Source of the DNA: a virus | Length of the DNA stretch: 21,118 bases | Virus record (IMG/VR): IMGVR_UViG_3300025674_000490 | Coordinates: 1 to 21,118 of that record | Reading direction: 5' to 3' (one strand) | Shown here: piece by piece, positions 4,531 to 13,251 of the stretch | Layout of the letters: each line of letters begins with the position of its first letter | Position numbering within the stretch: position 1 is the stretch's first letter | The notes under the pieces: model-generated | The model's database searches: none | Told to the model about the DNA's origin: nothing | Seen by the model: the letters and a program-made list of their open reading frames with translations, nothing else | Position numbers and translations under genes: made by a program

Positions 4531-4938
4531 TTATATATTTTTTATTAATTCGTGCGATGGATCTTCATCAACAGTCCACCCTAATTTTTTATGCGTTTCT
4601 ATTAAATGTCTATTTCGACCAATACTGAACATGTGCACTTTTCCTAACGATTTACAAGCTTCCTCTGCCGATGTTATTAATAGCTCTATCGCTTGTTTCC
4701 TGTCCTTATCTCTGTATTCTGGATCTGATACAATCCACTCTAACAATACCGCGTCAGAGTTTGTTAAATATATAAACCCTGCACATATTGGCCTACCTTC
4801 TTTTTCAACCATAAATCCCCCCTTGCCGTTATCAGGCAAAAAGCTTTTAGGCGGGTTGACCCATTTAGGCCATGCTTCCCACCATCTACATAATGTATCC
4901 CAATCTTCTTCTTGAAGACGACGTATATTTAATTCCAT
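4531..4938 (-). CDS. GNAT-family N-acetyltransferase-like protein
   Basis: This 135-residue protein has the GNAT order: an N-terminal beta strand with I-R-x-L (residues 5-8), a Trp-rich alpha1/alpha2 segment (13-26) and strands at about 41-57 (F-M-V-E-K-E-G-R-P). The beta4 strand is L-L-E-W-I-V-S-D (65-72), followed by the acetyl-CoA loop and helix (75-96), a strand V-H-M-F-S-I (101-106) and a closing helix with H-K-K-L-G-W (116-121), the usual GNAT ending. The loop reads Y-R-D-K-D-R-K and lacks the glycines of the R/Q-x-x-G-x-G/A signature, so cofactor binding may be altered. The substrate cannot be read from sequence. It lies inside the structural operon, between the muzzle and cargo genes, 5 bases after one and 3 before the next, so it should be made late with virion proteins. 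Small GNATs are known from marine phage genomes. Modification of a virion or host protein is speculation. Confidence 0.72.
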   Translation of the reverse strand: MELNIRRLQEEDWDTLCRWWEAWPKWVNPPKSFLPDNGKGGFMVEKEGRPICAGFIYLTNSDAVLLEWIVSDPEYRDKDRKQAIELLITSAEEACKSLGKVHMFSIGRNRHLIETHKKLGWTVDEDPSHELIKNI

Positions 4939-4943
4939 TTAAT

Positions 4944-6395
4944 TTAATATGATGATTCTACATACTCTGACGATACTGCAAATAGTTCTCGGGCTTTACC
5001 GCCGCTACCTACTACTTGTGTACTATTATCTGTTCTTATAGTCACAGTCGCGTAATAACCTTTTACACCTGAAATACTACTACCCCATATAACCTCACCA
5101 GCTGTTTCTTGACTATTATTTATAAGATTAGCAAAGTACTTACCTTCTTTTTTGTAAAACCCAGCGTAATATTGTATACCATCTTGTGTGTAACCACCCT
5201 CGTCATAACTTACTATAGATAGATTTTCGTTGTTAATATCTGGTCTTATTGAGTTAGAAATGTCTGTTAACCCAAAGCTTCTAGCTGCATTAAATTCAGA
5301 AACTTCCCAACCTGTAGATCCTTCATAGTTTATTGTTTTAAATACTTTAGAAGCGCTAACGTTTGGATTAAATATAAACGTTATACTTGAATCGCTGTAA
5401 GTATCATAGAATATAGATCTATTATCATTTGCGTTACTAGAATAATTATGTTGCCAAACTTTACCTTCATACACACTATAATATTTATTTTTAACGCTAA
5501 ATATTTGCTCTGGTTTATATGTGTATCTAGTTGTCCAACCAAGCACAGACTCATCAAACGATAGTGTTTGATAACTATTACTGCCTACAACAGGTATGTT
5601 TTGTCCTTGTAAGCTAACTACATATTGCTTTGTGTATATATCCCAAGCGCCCAAAGCTTTTTCTGTAGAACTTAAATTACCTAGTTGATCTCTAAAATAA
5701 TCATACATACCGTAGTTAGATATTTCTGTAATACCGTCTTGTGATAATCTCAATACAGCGTTTCTATTTTTATCTACAAAGTATTTTCTATAACCATACA
5801 CAGCAAAGCTCTCTGGGTTCTTGCTAATACCAAAGTTGCCAGCATAAGGAACAATTTGACCTATAACTAAATTAAGCGTGCTTACGGCTGATCCTTGTCC
5901 TTCAGCGGAATATATAGCATCTTTGTCTATAAGTGCTCTACTAACTTTATTTTCTTGAAATATATTAAGGTTTGTATCTTCAGCATATAGTTTTTGTATA
6001 CTACCATTTGCTGGGTCTGCAGACTTGGTTATATCTTCACCTACACTAAATACATTGGTATTATTTATACCCGTTCTAGAGTTAAATATACCAGAATATA
6101 TTAACGAATTAAATCTAATGCTTGAATTAGGTTCTTCGTCTACCAAATAAGCACGAACACCATAATCAACATTAGTATTGTTGTAACCACCACGTATTCT
6201 AGCTTCTTCCACAAGCCAACTATCTTGTGCTTCCATGTTTGCTAGGGGAACAACTGGATAACCACCGCCTTCACCACTAGGCACGCCTGTGCTACCAAGC
6301 CACGTGGGCACTTGATCTACACCTACTTGTCTTTCGTTTAACGCCTTCTTTAATATAAAAGAGTTAAAATACTTTACTTCTACTACTGCTCCCAT
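4944..6395 (-). CDS. Tail muzzle/nozzle-type structural protein, second (C-terminal) part
   Basis: The 483 residues carry beta-rich motifs that I associate with the tail muzzle of crAss-like and related marine phages. These include R-I-R-G-G-Y-N-N-T (67-75), S-G-I-F-N-S-R-T-G-I-N-N-T (101-113), K-L-Y-A-E-D-T-N-L (135-143), V-S-R-A-L-I-D-K-D-A-I-Y (151-162), G-I-S-K-N-P-E-S-F-A-V-Y-G (189-201) and N-A-V-L-R-L-S-Q-D-G (212-221). The pattern Y-F-V-D-K-N-R-N-A-V-L-R-L resembles a propeller blade of a tail nozzle. The ATG at 6395 follows a single TAA and one GAT codon, in the same frame as the 1340-aa upstream protein, so the two may be halves of one ancestral protein. Its N-terminus (V-E-V-K-Y-F-N-S-F) looks like a natural start, which favours a genuine separate gene. 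The role is structural, at the distal short tail. Stop TAA. Confidence 0.72.
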   Translation of the reverse strand: MGAVVEVKYFNSFILKKALNERQVGVDQVPTWLGSTGVPSGEGGGYPVVPLANMEAQDSWLVEEARIRGGYNNTNVDYGVRAYLVDEEPNSSIRFNSLIYSGIFNSRTGINNTNVFSVGEDITKSADPANGSIQKLYAEDTNLNIFQENKVSRALIDKDAIYSAEGQGSAVSTLNLVIGQIVPYAGNFGISKNPESFAVYGYRKYFVDKNRNAVLRLSQDGITEISNYGMYDYFRDQLGNLSSTEKALGAWDIYTKQYVVSLQGQNIPVVGSNSYQTLSFDESVLGWTTRYTYKPEQIFSVKNKYYSVYEGKVWQHNYSSNANDNRSIFYDTYSDSSITFIFNPNVSASKVFKTINYEGSTGWEVSEFNAARSFGLTDISNSIRPDINNENLSIVSYDEGGYTQDGIQYYAGFYKKEGKYFANLINNSQETAGEVIWGSSISGVKGYYATVTIRTDNSTQVVGSGGKARELFAVSSEYVESSY

Positions 6396-6401
6396 ATCTT
6401 A
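6396..6401 (-). other. In-frame TAA-GAT junction between the two muzzle-type proteins
   Basis: The stop TAA (6399-6401) of the 1340-aa protein is followed by GAT and then the ATG of the 483-aa protein, all in one reading frame. Readthrough would give a single protein of about 1825 residues. No Shine-Dalgarno precedes the ATG, but that is true of nearly all genes here. Unlike several other junctions, there is no second in-frame stop. Confidence 0.85.
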
Positions 6402-9400
6402 CGAATATAAACAAGGTGTTGGTATTGAATTCACTAATCCATTGCTGAGGAAAGAAGCTGTATAAGCTCCGTCTTTTGTATACTCAGGATTAAACACAGT
6501 ATTACCATCAGCTGAATCTACCCGTTGCATTCTTCTAAATTTATATATACCTGTTGTTAATGAAGATGGTTGTAAAAAATTTACATCATCATAAAGTTGC
6601 GTAACGTAATTTGCAAAAGGTTCTTTAGCGTATTTATAAACATTATTAAAATTTGAAGAACACGCAGCATTAGGACCTACTATTTCATATCTATAAGTGC
6701 TTCCATAAGTAGCAAAGTCAGTTGGATTTGCAATATCACTAGGAGGATTGTAGAAATCACCTATTTGTAAACCAGCGCTAGATTCAAATGAGTCTCCTGT
6801 ATAATTGCAATTTACACCAGTGTCATAAAAACCATAATTAGATTGTAAATTACCTAGTATTATTCTATAATCACCAACCGTGTTAAACGCAAAAACTTTT
6901 GCGCCATCAGCGCCGAAACCTTCAGCTTCAGTGTATTTATTAGATACAAGCAAACCAGAGTTTGACCCATAGTTATTGTTAACTGTACTTATTAAACCAT
7001 CTATTGATGGGATTGCTACGTCCCATTCCCATGTACCACTAGGAACTCCAGCGGGTTGCGTTGTTACAGTGGATATACCATTTAAATCATATACAGGTTG
7101 CCATCCAATATTTGCATTAGGCCGCTGTTGTATACTATATCTTAAATTAACAAAACTTTGAAATAAAGATTGGCTTATGTTTCTAGCATTTGAAACTGAT
7201 AATATAATAAAAATCGTTCCTTGTGTAAGTGCACCAGATATTCTTTCATTGTAAAAATACGGTTCGCTATCAAAACCTCCTGACGTACATAAATTATTAT
7301 TTACAGGGTTGTTTGAACTACTTGATGGCGCTTCATAACCATTTAACCAACCTTGAAAAGGAGGTTGACTACCTAAAATACTAACCTCATTACCTGTTAA
7401 ACTTGAAAAACCACTGGTGCCAGTAAACCAAAAAGCAGCGCCATATCCCGAGTATATTTCGTAATCAGCAAAGCTAGAAAATACAGAATCAACAGGTGGC
7501 TCTCCAAAGTTAATATTAAATGTTTTTGAAGCTGTAGCTCCTCCAGCGTCTGTAACTTGCAAGGTAAAACTTTCAATACCAATAGCTGTGTTATCTGAAT
7601 TTAATACCTGAAGACCGCTAATAGAAAAAATGTTTCGAGATTGACTAGTAAGAGCAAACTGTAAATCATTAGTAGAGTTACCGCCTAAAGGATTAGAACC
7701 GTTAACAGCGTCTATTGTTAGTATTAACGATTGTCCTCTTGTAACGTTTATTGTGCTAGTGTTTGAGTTGTTTATTATGGGCGGATTGTTTGTTAAAGAA
7801 CCTGTTATTGAGGGTGTTGTAAATACGGGTTGGTTATTATTGTCTAAAGTTTCTACTGTAAAAGTAAACGTATAAGACTCAAGCTGCGCTGCATTAATAC
7901 CATAATAAAAATAATCAGCTGTTTGTAGTTTATAAAAACCAGGGCTAACTTCTACCAAGGTAAATTCACCATTTCTATTATCGTTTGGATCTAAATCGTC
8001 GTAAACAGACGTTAATACCGGAGTGCTGTTAGGTATTATTATAGAACCTTGAACATCAGTGAAAGAAAACTCATCTGTAACATCTGCTCCTATTCCATCC
8101 TCTTCTTCATGGTCATAATTAAAGTTAATTATTCCAAACGCTCCGTTAGTATCTTGCTGGATAGCTGTGTTTAAATCTTCAATCAAACCGGAAGTCGTAG
8201 ATTCCCAAAATATGTCTAATCTAGACGTTGTTGGTTTTGTTTCAAAAATTGATAAGTTTTCAAATTTTTGATACTCCGTGTTTGGACTATTGTTATAATC
8301 TATGTTATTTGTACCAAATTGATTTGCAGGTGTTTGAGAAGTAATAAATTCTGCTATAAAAGGATTTGACTCGGATCTATAAAACGCATAATATGGGTTG
8401 TTTGTATTTGTTATAGGCACTGGATTATTATTACTGCCTTCAAAATCAGCTACGTCAAATAAATCAAAAAGATCTTCTATGGTATTTGTAGTAAAAGATT
8501 TTCTACCTGGAAAATACTGCTTGTTACCTCTTACATTATATGGAATGAAAAAATTATTTTCTACCAAACCAAATAATTCAACAGAACTTCTAAACTGTTT
8601 ATCTTGAGGTCCTACCTCTGATAAATCTCTTGGAACTTTATTTATATTATCATTTAATAAAGTTATAAACGATGCGTTTTCATTTGTTAAAGGTATTGGT
8701 GAGGTTATGCTGGTATCGTAGTAAGGACTACCTTTCATAGCGCCAGACGCATATACATTGTAGTATTCTTGCTCCAACTGTTTAACAACTATTTTATAAC
8801 TGTACCAACCTAAAGGCTTGTAATCTGGGTCAGTAGGATCACCGTTATATAGACCAGGTTCTCCAGTCGCGCTAGACTTAGTAGAATCTATAAATTTGTT
8901 AAATAATATTTTTAAAGAATTACCAATAAAAGCATTTGAATCATAAGCTGTAGAATTAGAATAAGGCAAGTATACAGTGTCAGCGCCGTAATCACCATCT
9001 GTTTGAGAAGTGTTGTTTGACAGTATAACAGTAGATTGTCTACCGTACTTGTCTGCAAGTACAACTCCAACTTGATAATTTCTATTTTGTTTTACAGTGT
9101 GGTTAGGATATTCTATATTTGTTTTTGCCCAACCAACATCACCATTTTCATTTTTACGAGTGGCAGCTACTTGATAATCAATACCAGAAGGTGGCGTGTG
9201 CTTATCTTGAAAATTAGCATACACAACTCTATTAGATGTTACTTCTTGCCCTAGAGCTCTTACAGGTACTTTATCATAGACTCTAGTTATTTCATTTTCT
9301 GGAAGTGTTTTATAAGGTTTTGTAGAATTGTACACGTATTCAAACACAGTACTTGTACCAGTTATTTGAGAAACTGGTATTGTTTCTACAACTTGCAAAG

Positions 9401-10421
9401 CTAAACCATCTGATTCTTTGTATATAATATCTAACTCTGTTATTTTAAACAAAGAATTTATTTCACCAACAGTAGCTGTAGTACCATCTGGTTTTTTAGG
9501 CATTGGTATTTGTAAAGCTATTTCATTTACTTTATTTTCCATAAACTCAACAATAGTACTTGCTACTGTTTGTTGTTCGTCACCTGGTAAAAAATAACCA
9601 TCTTGTTTTGGTATAAAACAAACTTGAGTAAACGGAGCTATAAGTGAATATTCACCATCATCAAATTTAAATCTATAACTAAATCTAACAAATTTATCTT
9701 CTAAAAATTGAGGATCACCTGGAAAATTAGGATTACCCGCGGGGTCTTCGTCAGCCCAATATGGGTTTGCAACATAAGAAGAATCATCTATAGGTATGTA
9801 TTGGCTAAATACATCTTTCATTGTTGTCTCGAAATTTCCAGGAGACAACGTAGATTCTTTTATAACCTCTATAGCTTGGTATGGAAAATACTTGGCTACA
9901 GATATTTGATCCTCATTAACATAATAGTTTGCTTGACCAAACTGGTTAGCTAAATTAACATTGATTTTTCTAGGTTGATTTCTATTATCTGTAAAAAACA
10001 ATAAGTTTTCTAAGATATTAATACCTGTTATAGGAAAAGCTTTTGAAAAATTTAAAAAAGGACCCTCAACTAATTTTGTTAGAGTATTACTTATAGCGTT
10101 GTATCTATATATAAAATGATTAGAACCAGCACCGCTTGGCGTATAATTAAAACCTGTGTCTGGGTTATCTGTAAAAAACAAATATACTAAAGAGTTTGTT
10201 TCATCTACTTTTCTACCTATACAACTTAAGTTAGGAATACCTAACTCTAAATCAGCAACAGACACGTTGCCTACAACGTTTTCCAACGCGCCAACGTCAT
10301 CACTTTCTGACTTGCTAACCTGTATGTTAACAGCGTCGCGATATTCACCTTGAGGAACTAACCTTGAGTCAAGGTCTTTGTTCATCTTTGATTTGATGAA
10401 TGAGTTTTTAACTTCAGCCAT
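6399..10421 (-). CDS. Giant tail nozzle/muzzle-type structural protein with Ig/cadherin-like domains, 1340 aa
   Basis: The N-terminus (K-M-N-K-D-L-D-S-R-L-V-P at 12-23, then G-E-Y-R-D-A-V-N) has the layout of a tail nozzle whose beta-propeller starts by binding the connector, as in T7 gp12-type proteins. Two blade-like copies of L-F-F-T-D-N lie at residues 81-86 and 141-146, exactly 60 residues apart. Beta-rich segments continue to about 750. Two Ig/cadherin-like modules follow, at about 760-875 and 878-972; the second has V-T-R-G-Q-S-L-I-L and ends with S-F-T-L-Q-V-T-D-A-G-G-A-T-A-S-K. Residues 980-1340 are Gly/Ser/Asn-rich beta sequence and contain most of its cysteines. Composition is very Asn/Thr/Tyr-rich, as in tail proteins. 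It probably forms the distal tail tube or muzzle together with the next gene. The ATG at 10421 follows TAA AAT TAA, two in-frame stops. Confidence 0.75.
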   Translation of the reverse strand: MAEVKNSFIKSKMNKDLDSRLVPQGEYRDAVNIQVSKSESDDVGALENVVGNVSVADLELGIPNLSCIGRKVDETNSLVYLFFTDNPDTGFNYTPSGAGSNHFIYRYNAISNTLTKLVEGPFLNFSKAFPITGINILENLLFFTDNRNQPRKINVNLANQFGQANYYVNEDQISVAKYFPYQAIEVIKESTLSPGNFETTMKDVFSQYIPIDDSSYVANPYWADEDPAGNPNFPGDPQFLEDKFVRFSYRFKFDDGEYSLIAPFTQVCFIPKQDGYFLPGDEQQTVASTIVEFMENKVNEIALQIPMPKKPDGTTATVGEINSLFKITELDIIYKESDGLALQVVETIPVSQITGTSTVFEYVYNSTKPYKTLPENEITRVYDKVPVRALGQEVTSNRVVYANFQDKHTPPSGIDYQVAATRKNENGDVGWAKTNIEYPNHTVKQNRNYQVGVVLADKYGRQSTVILSNNTSQTDGDYGADTVYLPYSNSTAYDSNAFIGNSLKILFNKFIDSTKSSATGEPGLYNGDPTDPDYKPLGWYSYKIVVKQLEQEYYNVYASGAMKGSPYYDTSITSPIPLTNENASFITLLNDNINKVPRDLSEVGPQDKQFRSSVELFGLVENNFFIPYNVRGNKQYFPGRKSFTTNTIEDLFDLFDVADFEGSNNNPVPITNTNNPYYAFYRSESNPFIAEFITSQTPANQFGTNNIDYNNSPNTEYQKFENLSIFETKPTTSRLDIFWESTTSGLIEDLNTAIQQDTNGAFGIINFNYDHEEEDGIGADVTDEFSFTDVQGSIIIPNSTPVLTSVYDDLDPNDNRNGEFTLVEVSPGFYKLQTADYFYYGINAAQLESYTFTFTVETLDNNNQPVFTTPSITGSLTNNPPIINNSNTSTINVTRGQSLILTIDAVNGSNPLGGNSTNDLQFALTSQSRNIFSISGLQVLNSDNTAIGIESFTLQVTDAGGATASKTFNINFGEPPVDSVFSSFADYEIYSGYGAAFWFTGTSGFSSLTGNEVSILGSQPPFQGWLNGYEAPSSSSNNPVNNNLCTSGGFDSEPYFYNERISGALTQGTIFIILSVSNARNISQSLFQSFVNLRYSIQQRPNANIGWQPVYDLNGISTVTTQPAGVPSGTWEWDVAIPSIDGLISTVNNNYGSNSGLLVSNKYTEAEGFGADGAKVFAFNTVGDYRIILGNLQSNYGFYDTGVNCNYTGDSFESSAGLQIGDFYNPPSDIANPTDFATYGSTYRYEIVGPNAACSSNFNNVYKYAKEPFANYVTQLYDDVNFLQPSSLTTGIYKFRRMQRVDSADGNTVFNPEYTKDGAYTASFLSNGLVNSIPTPCLYS
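9985..10181 (-). repeat. Two copies of a 17-base repeat 180 bases apart, encoding L-F-F-T-D-N blades
   Basis: The string ttatctgtaaaaaacaa occurs at 9985-10001 and 10165-10181. The spacing of 180 bases equals 60 codons, and both copies encode L-F-F-T-D-N at the same frame in the large muzzle-type protein. This marks structurally repeated units, probably beta-propeller blades, rather than a mobile or regulatory repeat. Confidence 0.6.
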
Positions 10422-10427
10422 TTAATT

Positions 10428-11630
10428 TTAGTGTTTAATCCATTTAGATTTACCACGCATAGTTTGAATAAGCTCATTAAGCTTAATATTTGAAAGTCTA
10501 AGCTTAGCATTTCTAATCTTAGCACTTTTCTCTTTCTTAAGTCTTTGAACTATATACTCAGGTTGATTTATTCTTGTGGATATGATAGCGTGCAATATCG
10601 ATGCATACATTGCTTCTTCAGCAAGTTTAGGTACTTTAGTATCTAAGTCAGTTGATAAGCCATCAGATATATACTCAAAAGTGATTAGTTTGTCAACTAG
10701 ATTCGCAGAAAAAGATATTTTACCTTCTCTATCGTTTATAGTAAAGTAACCATTTGCATTAGCATACCTTGGGTCCATACCATATTGTTGTCCATAAAAT
10801 GGATCACCCCAACCGTAACCGTACTCCCATGTTTCAATAATGTTGTCAATATTTCTTTGTTCACCGAGTACGTTATCTTTCCATCTTAGCTCAGCAATAG
10901 AAGTACCACTAGTATTGTTATCAAAGTTATCTTGCAAAGGTATGCCTTCAGAGTCTTGAAGCGGTTGGGTGTATGGGTTGCTAGTTAAATCTGTTGGTAA
11001 TATAATATGTTTAACACCTTGATTATCAAACCAATATAAGTTAACATAGTTAACATAATCCTGGGGCATTACAACACTTAAGTTGTGTGGTATGTTTAGT
11101 TCTTGTGATTTTATAGCTTTAAGTGTATCGTAACTAAGCTCTTGCATAGCGCGCTTAGCGTGGAATATAACATCAGTTCGTTTTACAGACGGTATAAGCT
11201 TGTCTTGACCAACATAAGCTATTAAGAAATTATTTATAACGTCATCTAATTTAGTATAAGCATAAGAGCCATAGTTTTGCTCAACTACAGAGCCATAAGC
11301 TTTATCTTGAGTGGTGTTACCATATTTACCGCCGTCTAATCTTTTTAACTGAACAACTATAAAAAGATTGTTAGCTGGAGGCGTATCGAATGTTATAATG
11401 TTGTTTGTAACTGAATAATCAGCTACAACTTCAGACCAAGTTCCAGGAGTACCAGCTACACTAGTATATAACTTAAAGTTGTTTTTTTGATAGTTTACGT
11501 CTGTTTGCTCTGCAGCTCCAAAAACCAAATCAGTATCAAATGTAGTTGTAAAACTAACAGTTGTTCCATCGCCTCTAAAGCCTTGAGCGCCTTCGTAATA
11601 TTGTCTATTGTTTTCTGTTAGCAAAGCCAT
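10428..11630 (-). CDS. Tail connector/ring protein with extra N-terminal beta domain, 400 aa
   Basis: Residues 120-400 have the pattern of connector/ring proteins of crAss-like and P22/T7-type podoviruses. They comprise an alpha-helical start (I-F-H-A-K-R-A-M-Q-E-L, 155-165), a beta middle (N-I-P-H-N-L-S-V-V-M-P, 179-189), the conserved F-E-Y-I-S-D-G-L (318-325) with a helix (P-K-L-A-E-E-A-M-Y-A), and a Lys/Arg-rich C-terminal helix. Residues 10-105 form a separate beta domain (F-R-G-D-G-T-T-V-S-F at 18-27; N-I-I-T-F-D-T-P-P-A at 77-86) of the type seen at the start of T7-like tail-fibre and adaptor proteins. The protein probably stacks below the portal and may dock a fibre or the muzzle. It starts with ATG after TAA TAA, in the same frame as the upstream connector gene. 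The fibre-docking idea is inference. Confidence 0.72.
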   Translation of the reverse strand: MALLTENNRQYYEGAQGFRGDGTTVSFTTTFDTDLVFGAAEQTDVNYQKNNFKLYTSVAGTPGTWSEVVADYSVTNNIITFDTPPANNLFIVVQLKRLDGGKYGNTTQDKAYGSVVEQNYGSYAYTKLDDVINNFLIAYVGQDKLIPSVKRTDVIFHAKRAMQELSYDTLKAIKSQELNIPHNLSVVMPQDYVNYVNLYWFDNQGVKHIILPTDLTSNPYTQPLQDSEGIPLQDNFDNNTSGTSIAELRWKDNVLGEQRNIDNIIETWEYGYGWGDPFYGQQYGMDPRYANANGYFTINDREGKISFSANLVDKLITFEYISDGLSTDLDTKVPKLAEEAMYASILHAIISTRINQPEYIVQRLKKEKSAKIRNAKLRLSNIKLNELIQTMRGKSKWIKH

Positions 11631-11633
11631 TTA

Positions 11634-12419
11634 TTAACTTTTTTGATTCATTTCGTTTTGTGCTATTTCACTAGCAGCAGCTTGTACTATTTGCGGATCT
11701 CTTATAACTATACCAGAGTATTGTAATATTCTAAGTATGATATTAGTTTGTTCTTCTGGTAATAATTCAAAATCGTATGAAGCTCCTGGGTTATAATTGT
11801 ATTGACCTAAACCACCAACACCATACGCCCAAACAACATTAACTGGTCTTCTTATAAAATTTGCCTGCACGTTACTTGTTATAGCTGCTGGAGCTACGTT
11901 TAGTAAACCACTTTCGTAAAGATATACTGGAAAGCTCGTGCTAGGCGTTGTTAACTTAGATTTTTGTATTTCATAAAAATCATCTCGCTGTAATCTTTGT
12001 AGTTCAACTGGATAACTACCACCACCATTATAAACTACAGTGCCCAATTTGTAAAAAGAAAAACCACCTTGAGTTCCGTTCCATGGTGCTATGGTTTGAT
12101 AGTTGTCATCGTACACAACGCTAGCGCCTGTTATAAGATCCGTAGTAGGAAGATTAAATCTACCGTTAGAATAAACACAATCACCAATACATTTAAATTT
12201 AGATATTTTTTCATCTATACTCATTTGCCTATCAGCGTAATCATAATCAGCTTGCTGTACTCTTAATTGTTGATTTAGATCATCAAAGTATTGTTCGAAT
12301 ATATCTAGTTGTACTTGTGTAGCTGTTTTATTAAACTCATCAGGCGTCATGTAACCACGTTGCTCTTTGTTTAATATAAGCAAAACGGTTTGATACACAT
12401 TGTTTACGTTTATTGCCAT
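11634..12419 (-). CDS. Head-tail connector/ring protein, 261 aa
   Basis: The start (V-Y-Q-T-V-L-L-I-L-N-K-E-Q-R-G-Y-M-T-P-D-E-F, residues 8-29, quoted in part) is the pattern I associate with ring or tail-stabilisation proteins of crAss-like phages, which bind under the portal. The helical N-terminus (residues 5-60, with Q-V-Q-L-D-I-F-E-Q-Y-F) is followed by a beta region (80-200) and a C-terminal helix (220-258, E-E-Q-T-N-I-I-L-R-I-L). A strongly polar Q-R-L-Q-R-D-D-F-Y-E-I motif lies at 141-151. The start ATG at 12419 follows a hairpin terminator, so it may begin a separately controlled set of tail genes. It ends TAA, with a second TAA directly before the next ATG. The head-to-tail joining role is inferred from family resemblance and gene order. 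Confidence 0.75.
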   Translation of the reverse strand: MAINVNNVYQTVLLILNKEQRGYMTPDEFNKTATQVQLDIFEQYFDDLNQQLRVQQADYDYADRQMSIDEKISKFKCIGDCVYSNGRFNLPTTDLITGASVVYDDNYQTIAPWNGTQGGFSFYKLGTVVYNGGGSYPVELQRLQRDDFYEIQKSKLTTPSTSFPVYLYESGLLNVAPAAITSNVQANFIRRPVNVVWAYGVGGLGQYNYNPGASYDFELLPEEQTNIILRILQYSGIVIRDPQIVQAAASEIAQNEMNQKS

Positions 12420-12440
12420 TTATATTTTTATTTAAATATA

Positions 12441-12462
12441 AGGGCCCGAGTGAACGAGCCCT
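12441..12462 (-). terminator. Hairpin terminator after the 256-aa gene
   Basis: An inverted repeat pairs 12441-12448 with 12455-12462 (8 pairs, 6-base loop). One position (12446/12457) is a C/A mismatch on the plus strand but a G·U pair in RNA made from the minus strand, so the hairpin is complete only in the direction of the genes. A T/A-rich run follows. It fills most of the 61-base gap before the first connector gene. Confidence 0.6.
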
Positions 12463-12480
12463 ATATACTATTGTTACATG

Positions 12481-13251
12481 TTATTTAAGTTTTTTCTCTA
12501 TAGACTTGAAGACTTCTACACCTTCGTCAGTCTTAAAGAAAGCAGCCATTGCTGAGTATGGGTTTTCGTCAAATGGAACATTCATAAGTTTCTTACCATT
12601 AGACGCCCAAGCAAATGATCTTTGATCATCAGCTAGCAAAATAATTTTAGCTTCAGTTGCTTTAATAGCAAAGTTTCTAAGCTGTACATTATCATCGTTA
12701 GCAAGTTCTATAAACAATTTTGGGTTTTTTCTAGCAAATATTAATAGATCTCGTTTAACCTCTTTAGAAGACATTTGATTTACTTTACTTCCAACTTCAA
12801 CTCTTAATATAGCTTCTGCTTGATCAATGTCCATAATTCTAGCAGCGTTAAGAGCGTCAATCTGAAGTTCCATGATGTCTAATTCATCTTCAGCTTCTAC
12901 TACAGCATTATATTCTGTATATCGTATATTTTTTAACGGGTGATATAATGAAAGTAGTTTTTGTAATGCTTGATGTTCTTTTGAAACAAACAAAGCACCA
13001 TCTTTAAATAAAATAGTACCTAATGTAACTTCACCATATTGATCTTCAACAAATGGAGAAGACATATTTGTAGCGTACCTTAATTCTTTTTGTTCGTTAG
13101 TCTCTGGATCAAACCACAGTAGTGGAAATTTTCTGCTATGTCTAGCTGGTATCCTAAGTGTTAATGGTTTGTATTTTCCTTTAACGAAGTATGTTCTATC
13201 TTTAATCTCCCAACCCTGTTCAACGCTAGGAGCTTCTTTTGTTTTTGCCAT
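12481..13251 (-). CDS. Conserved phage protein of unknown function, between capsid and connector genes
   Basis: This 256-residue protein has no enzyme motif I can name. It begins with a beta-type region (W-E-I-K-D-R-T-Y-F at 14-22, P-A-R-H-S-R-K-F-P at 35-43, L-R-Y-A-T-N-M-S-S-P-F at 57-67). A long helical part follows (about 88-256), including I-D-A-L-N-A-A-R-I-M-D-I-D, E-V-K-R-D-L-L-I-F-A-R-K and N-V-Q-L-R-N-F-A-I-K-A-T-E. I recall closely similar, strongly conserved proteins in marine phage genomes, encoded near the capsid gene. A head-completion or neck role fits the position, but I cannot show it. Hairpin terminators lie on both sides, so its transcript level probably differs from that of its neighbours. 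Start ATG behind an A/T-only leader; stop TAA. Confidence 0.7.
   Translation of the reverse strand: MAKTKEAPSVEQGWEIKDRTYFVKGKYKPLTLRIPARHSRKFPLLWFDPETNEQKELRYATNMSSPFVEDQYGEVTLGTILFKDGALFVSKEHQALQKLLSLYHPLKNIRYTEYNAVVEAEDELDIMELQIDALNAARIMDIDQAEAILRVEVGSKVNQMSSKEVKRDLLIFARKNPKLFIELANDDNVQLRNFAIKATEAKIILLADDQRSFAWASNGKKLMNVPFDENPYSAMAAFFKTDEGVEVFKSIEKKLK

Follow-up and report, generated by a model that had tools for sequence, protein, structure and literature searches.

In the most abundant group of gut phages and in their relatives, the muzzle serves as the gate, and it is thought to touch the cell surface. The first-pass annotation of the DNA analysed here referred to a single very long muzzle in crAss-like phages, and this holds for all four gut crassviruses that we examined, crAss001, cr108_1, cr115_1 and cr118_1, each of which carries one muzzle gene. 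A split muzzle in cr108_1, suggested by a list of tblastn matches, was rejected, the protein being encoded by one gene of 2031 aa. Single muzzle genes are also found in the Cellulophaga phage phi38:1 (gp97, 1324 aa), the Flavobacterium phage elemo (gp22, 1470 aa) and the Tenacibaculum phage Gundel_1 (gp60, 1386 aa). In gp44, the muzzle of phicrAss001, an IG2 domain with an inserted crass fold occupies residues 318-1021, and the gate is formed by a loop within propeller blade 4; insertions into the crass and IG2 domains give rise to variation in muzzle length (PMC10172136). No report of a split muzzle was found in the literature that we searched.

The window, the whole 21,118-nucleotide stretch of viral DNA analysed here, carries two adjacent genes, P1 and P2, that together match these single-gene muzzles. 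The first-pass annotation described the 1340-aa and 483-aa products as lying in one frame with only TAA GAT between them, and we confirmed this arrangement on the minus strand, where the junction reads TTA TAT TCG TAA GAT ATG GGA and contains a single stop. We conclude that P1 and P2 together correspond to a single muzzle (tail-nozzle) protein, in a marine relative of gut crAss phages. The whole explanation that we propose, with a probability of about 90%, is fission of the muzzle gene, together with about 600 extra residues, yielding two chains that are expected to co-assemble.

Table 1 Features of the split muzzle locus in the window and, where a locus is named, in related loci
Feature	Coordinates	Strand	Basis or remark
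P1, N-terminal muzzle gene, 1340 aa	6399..10421, stop included	-	phrog_14478; hhalign; fold match
P1 distal tail, residues ~770-1340, poorly conserved	6399..8114	-	identity drop at ~760; without match in fused muzzles
Junction: stop TAA (6399-6401) and spacer GAT (6396-6398)	6396..6401	-	frame, length and stop codon not conserved
P2, C-terminal muzzle gene, 483 aa	4944..6395	-	crAss_MUZ_C; hhalign; model
135-aa gene downstream; phrog_17252; syntenic with phi38:1 gp98	4531..4938	-	gene order of fused relatives kept
400-aa structural gene upstream; phrog_13977; syntenic with phi38:1 gp96	10428..11630	-	
Nucleotidyltransferase-like ORF between muzzle halves, L031 and L038	6610-6999		
Nucleotidyltransferase-like ORF between muzzle halves, L079	6543-6974		
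Site-II muzzle with putative glycosidase gene between parts, L086 (MW202828)	7001-13021		

The identity of the two proteins was established by several profile comparisons. A single PHROG profile, phrog_14478 (1474 aa, virion structural protein), spans both, matching P1 at its start (1-190) and P2 at positions 923-1221, and the Pfam domain crAss_MUZ_C was found in P2 at residues 326-424 with 43.8 bits, against a cut-off of 27. Alignment with hhalign placed P1 on residues 9-152 of crAss001 gp44 and P2 residues 113-373 on residues 1035-1292; these profile alignments are collinear with gp44, P1 representing its N part and P2 its C part. In a fold search with AlphaFold models built from relatives, the best solved-structure match of the P2 model was the phicrAss001 muzzle (7qok_A, E 9e-12), with a low TM-score, followed by P22, GP4, Sf6 and other podovirus tail proteins. 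The P2 model is of low confidence (mean pLDDT 60.7), and for this reason the independent profile alignment to gp44 matters. The P1 model, covering residues 1-1000, found 7qok_A at rank 11 (E 1.7e-8) amid many cadherin-repeat matches, for which the Ig-like distal region is the probable source. No match to PF25731, the Pfam model of the full-length muzzle, was obtained in P1, in P2 or in the single-gene phi38:1 muzzle; because PF25731 misses even this intact muzzle, the model does not reach this branch. PDB sequence searches with P1, P2 and their profiles returned no nozzle, which was reached only by the fold search and hhalign.

Crassvirus-type muzzles are one polypeptide, acting as a gate in the form of a hexamer at the tail tip. 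Since the window has two ORFs in place of that one polypeptide, we class the locus as a split muzzle variant and not as a typical member. Within the crAss001 muzzle, P2 appears to correspond to the later regions: the end of IG2, the later propeller blades and the C-terminal domain. P2 residue 113 maps just past IG2, so the break would fall within the IG2/crass region, in a loop whose exact position is predicted. The pair sits among tail and structural genes, and the gene order that flanks it is that of phi38:1 gp93-gp101, gene for gene on both sides. Both halves are homologous to single-gene muzzles, with synteny kept, and P2 is homologous to muzzle C-termini by both the above-cut-off crAss_MUZ_C match and the gp44 1035-1292 alignment; fission, the reading that the first-pass annotation preferred, is supported.

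The same annotation described the muzzle as interrupted by a single in-frame TAA, a wording that misleads. One in-frame TAA is indeed present, but the two-gene state is old and the break bears about 600 extra residues, so that the split consists of more than one stop codon set in a gene that is otherwise fused. Across 34 relatives, P1 shows an identity to the window of 0.43-0.85 over the first 760 residues and of 0.20-0.35 thereafter; the value is 0.58 at residues 721-760 and drops to 0.2-0.35 after ~760. The conserved muzzle part of P1 therefore comprises residues 1 to ~760. Profiles of P1 770-1340 matched none of 45 fused muzzles or N-genes of muzzles split at a second position, termed site II and described below. 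Within this tail, an Ig-like Big_9 match at residues 878-971 was below the cut-off, and cadherin/Ig-like folds were present in the modelled part of residues ~770-1340. Spacing was measured in 26 of these 45 (25 fused and one site-II): their P1-like part ends at ~745, and the sequence resumes at P2-like position ~57 after mostly 8-44 residues (median ~22). This short spacing indicates that the P1 tail is extra, amounting to ~600 residues in the split lineage. As judged from these comparisons, the gene boundary is at the C-terminal end of the extra residues.

A first scan of IMG/VR retained 80 close relatives, and all of these that show both halves are split like the window. On an unrooted FastTree phylogeny (175 non-redundant rows, 641 columns), 76 of the 77 non-redundant loci split at this position (site I) form one group, with support of 100, that includes the window; the remaining locus, L183, stands alone among fused muzzles, giving two origins of the site-I split, and a 70-row IQ-TREE run agrees. 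By the evidence of these sequences, the fission is old. An error of sequencing or assembly, or a recent mutation disabling a fused gene, is a barely conceivable source of the TAA, as the near-identical locus L002 is split and so are the relatives at 52-90% identity, all with an ATG at the same protein position behind spacers that differ.

Site II lies ~270 residues into P2. The muzzle is split there in ~45 loci and in ctfjg026 (MW202828), and the C-terminal module is a gene of its own, ~240-290 aa in most, lying anywhere from adjacent to 3.6 kb away; the site-II split needs 3-5 changes on the tree. Some seemingly fused muzzles of the site-II clade were reclassified, where the contig ends inside the gene or no C-terminal module was found along it. 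L209, a candidate for a large intervening insert, was rejected, its N gene seeming to carry a frame break. The break in Maribacter phage Panino (PP540027.1) was left out of the split count, as it resembles a change of frame within the C part of the muzzle (7180-8316), whether by frameshift, sequencing error or another split. In Bohxovirus 'endotrachealis' (PV686213.1), the annotation breaks the muzzle region up into many short hypothetical ORFs, and a recoded stop codon was likely overlooked by the annotators.

An unrooted tree does not separate fission from fusion, and it would also accommodate two ancestral genes; Cellulophaga-type phages and gut crassviruses would then have gained their single-gene muzzles by later fusion. 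We regard this history as improbable, since the muzzle is fused in crAss001, cr108_1, cr115_1 and cr118_1 and in isolates from several families alike, and the other splits (L183 and site II) are placed among fused muzzles. Fission is thus preferred on account of the fused state in more distant crassviruses and not of a rooted tree.

The shared frame of P1 and P2 had raised an alternative: were the TAA read through, in a leaky or programmed manner, some virions would incorporate a minor P1-P2 fusion product of ~1825 residues. Same frame and single stop are found in the window and in L002, and the sequence alone is compatible with low-level background leakiness. In the 110 split loci, a count that includes two duplicate contigs, the frame of the P2 ATG relative to the P1 stop was 0 in 44, 2 in 35 and 1 in 31. 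The distance between stop and ATG is 1-53 nt in most split loci and varies even among close relatives (1, 2, 3, 9, 11, 12, 17 or 26 nt), and the stop itself may be TAA, TAG or TGA. In L031, L038 and L079, another ORF, encoding a nucleotidyltransferase-like protein of 129-143 aa (VGGALHKKETKDIDI), lies between the halves. The predicted RNA fold at the junction was nothing unusual relative to shuffled sequences (z -0.46), and a search of four related loci for tRNA genes yielded none. With all three frames and an occasional intervening gene among relatives, readthrough fails the test that the first-pass annotation had proposed for it, and neither frame, spacer length nor stop codon is conserved. 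We consider the fusion product highly improbable, and readthrough as a conserved function is rejected on this comparative evidence.

Within the window, 8 of 13 gene junctions are in frame and four have a gap of exactly 3 nt (TerL/portal, 261/400 aa, P1/P2 and 135/241 aa); the shared frame of P1 and P2 is no more than chance or local gene packing gives. Double in-frame stops, noted earlier at other junctions, were found as TAA TAG, TAA TAA and TAA AAT TAA. The lone in-frame TAA is incidental, a product of the 3-nt spacing.

In many split relatives outside the close subclade of the window, a conserved element, GTAA-14 bases-AWGTRATWAT or a near variant, stands just before the P2 ATG, in spacers that are mostly 24-53 nt long (for example in L066, at ~6968-7000, and in L022, L028 and L047). 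A search of whole records located it in few places besides the junction, namely upstream of small ORFs, a 271-aa tail gene, a GroEL gene and an ERF-like recombinase gene that has a sigma-factor-like gene as its neighbour, the ERF-like, sigma-factor-like and GroEL names being assigned by eye from sequence. There were 23 matches in whole records against 6 for a reversed control pattern, and when two 59-kb records were scanned with a weight matrix, six sites emerged, all intergenic, against one in shuffled sequence. The phage GroEL-like gene (517 aa; L258, G011:35500-38500) is preceded by the element at G011:37512-37539. Taken together, these features of the element resemble those of a phage promoter. 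No such element was found before P2 in the window or its close subclade, where the spacer is 1-3 nt in most members, and at this spacing translational coupling is the simplest route to P2.

We propose that the ancestral muzzle was encoded by a single gene, and that a loop in its distal domain was the point of breakage, at which this lineage also bears the ~600 fast-evolving residues that now form the C-terminal end of P1. The two chains would co-assemble into one nozzle, to which P1 would bring the N-terminal region and the distal domains facing the host, and P2 would add the later propeller blades and the C-terminal domain. In the window, P2 would most simply be made by termination and re-initiation across TAA-GAT-ATG, and the conserved promoter-like element in front of P2 may serve instead in many of the split relatives that are more distant. 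More tentatively, muzzle fission could be a recurrent route, taken at two loops and several times, to a two-chain, fast-diversifying tail tip in which the promoter-like element of P2 lets the amounts of the chains differ, a possibility that we consider rather doubtful. These marine phages suggest that a muzzle made of two chains can function, and they show which positions tolerate a cut. The break marks permissive loops, close to a rapidly evolving region that may determine host recognition. For annotation, half-muzzles of marine phages should not be taken for truncated genes.

Among known systems, the nozzle-type tail proteins of T7 (gp12), P22 (gp10) and Sf6 share a similar fold by fold search, but they are much smaller, lack the crass domain, and such a split was not seen in them here. 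The muzzle of phicrAss001 (gp44; PDB 7QOK/7QOL; Pfam PF25731, PF25729) resembles the window in its fold match to both halves in N-then-C order, in the C-terminal domain PF25729, which is present in P2, and in the placement of its gene after that of a ring/tail-tubular protein; it differs in being one chain of 1371 aa, whereas the window has two chains and a long cadherin/Ig-like tail at the break. The muzzles of phi38:1, elemo and Gundel_1 are ~25-33% identical to both window halves, and phi38:1 and elemo share the gene order on both sides, but each of the three is one gene in which no counterpart of P1 770-1340 was found. The uncultured podovirus ctfjg026 and ~45 site-II relatives from IMG/VR likewise have a two-gene muzzle, whose first gene carries additional sequence beyond the break; their break lies ~270 residues further on, the second gene encodes the C-terminal module only, and in ctfjg026 a putative glycosidase gene separates the muzzle parts.
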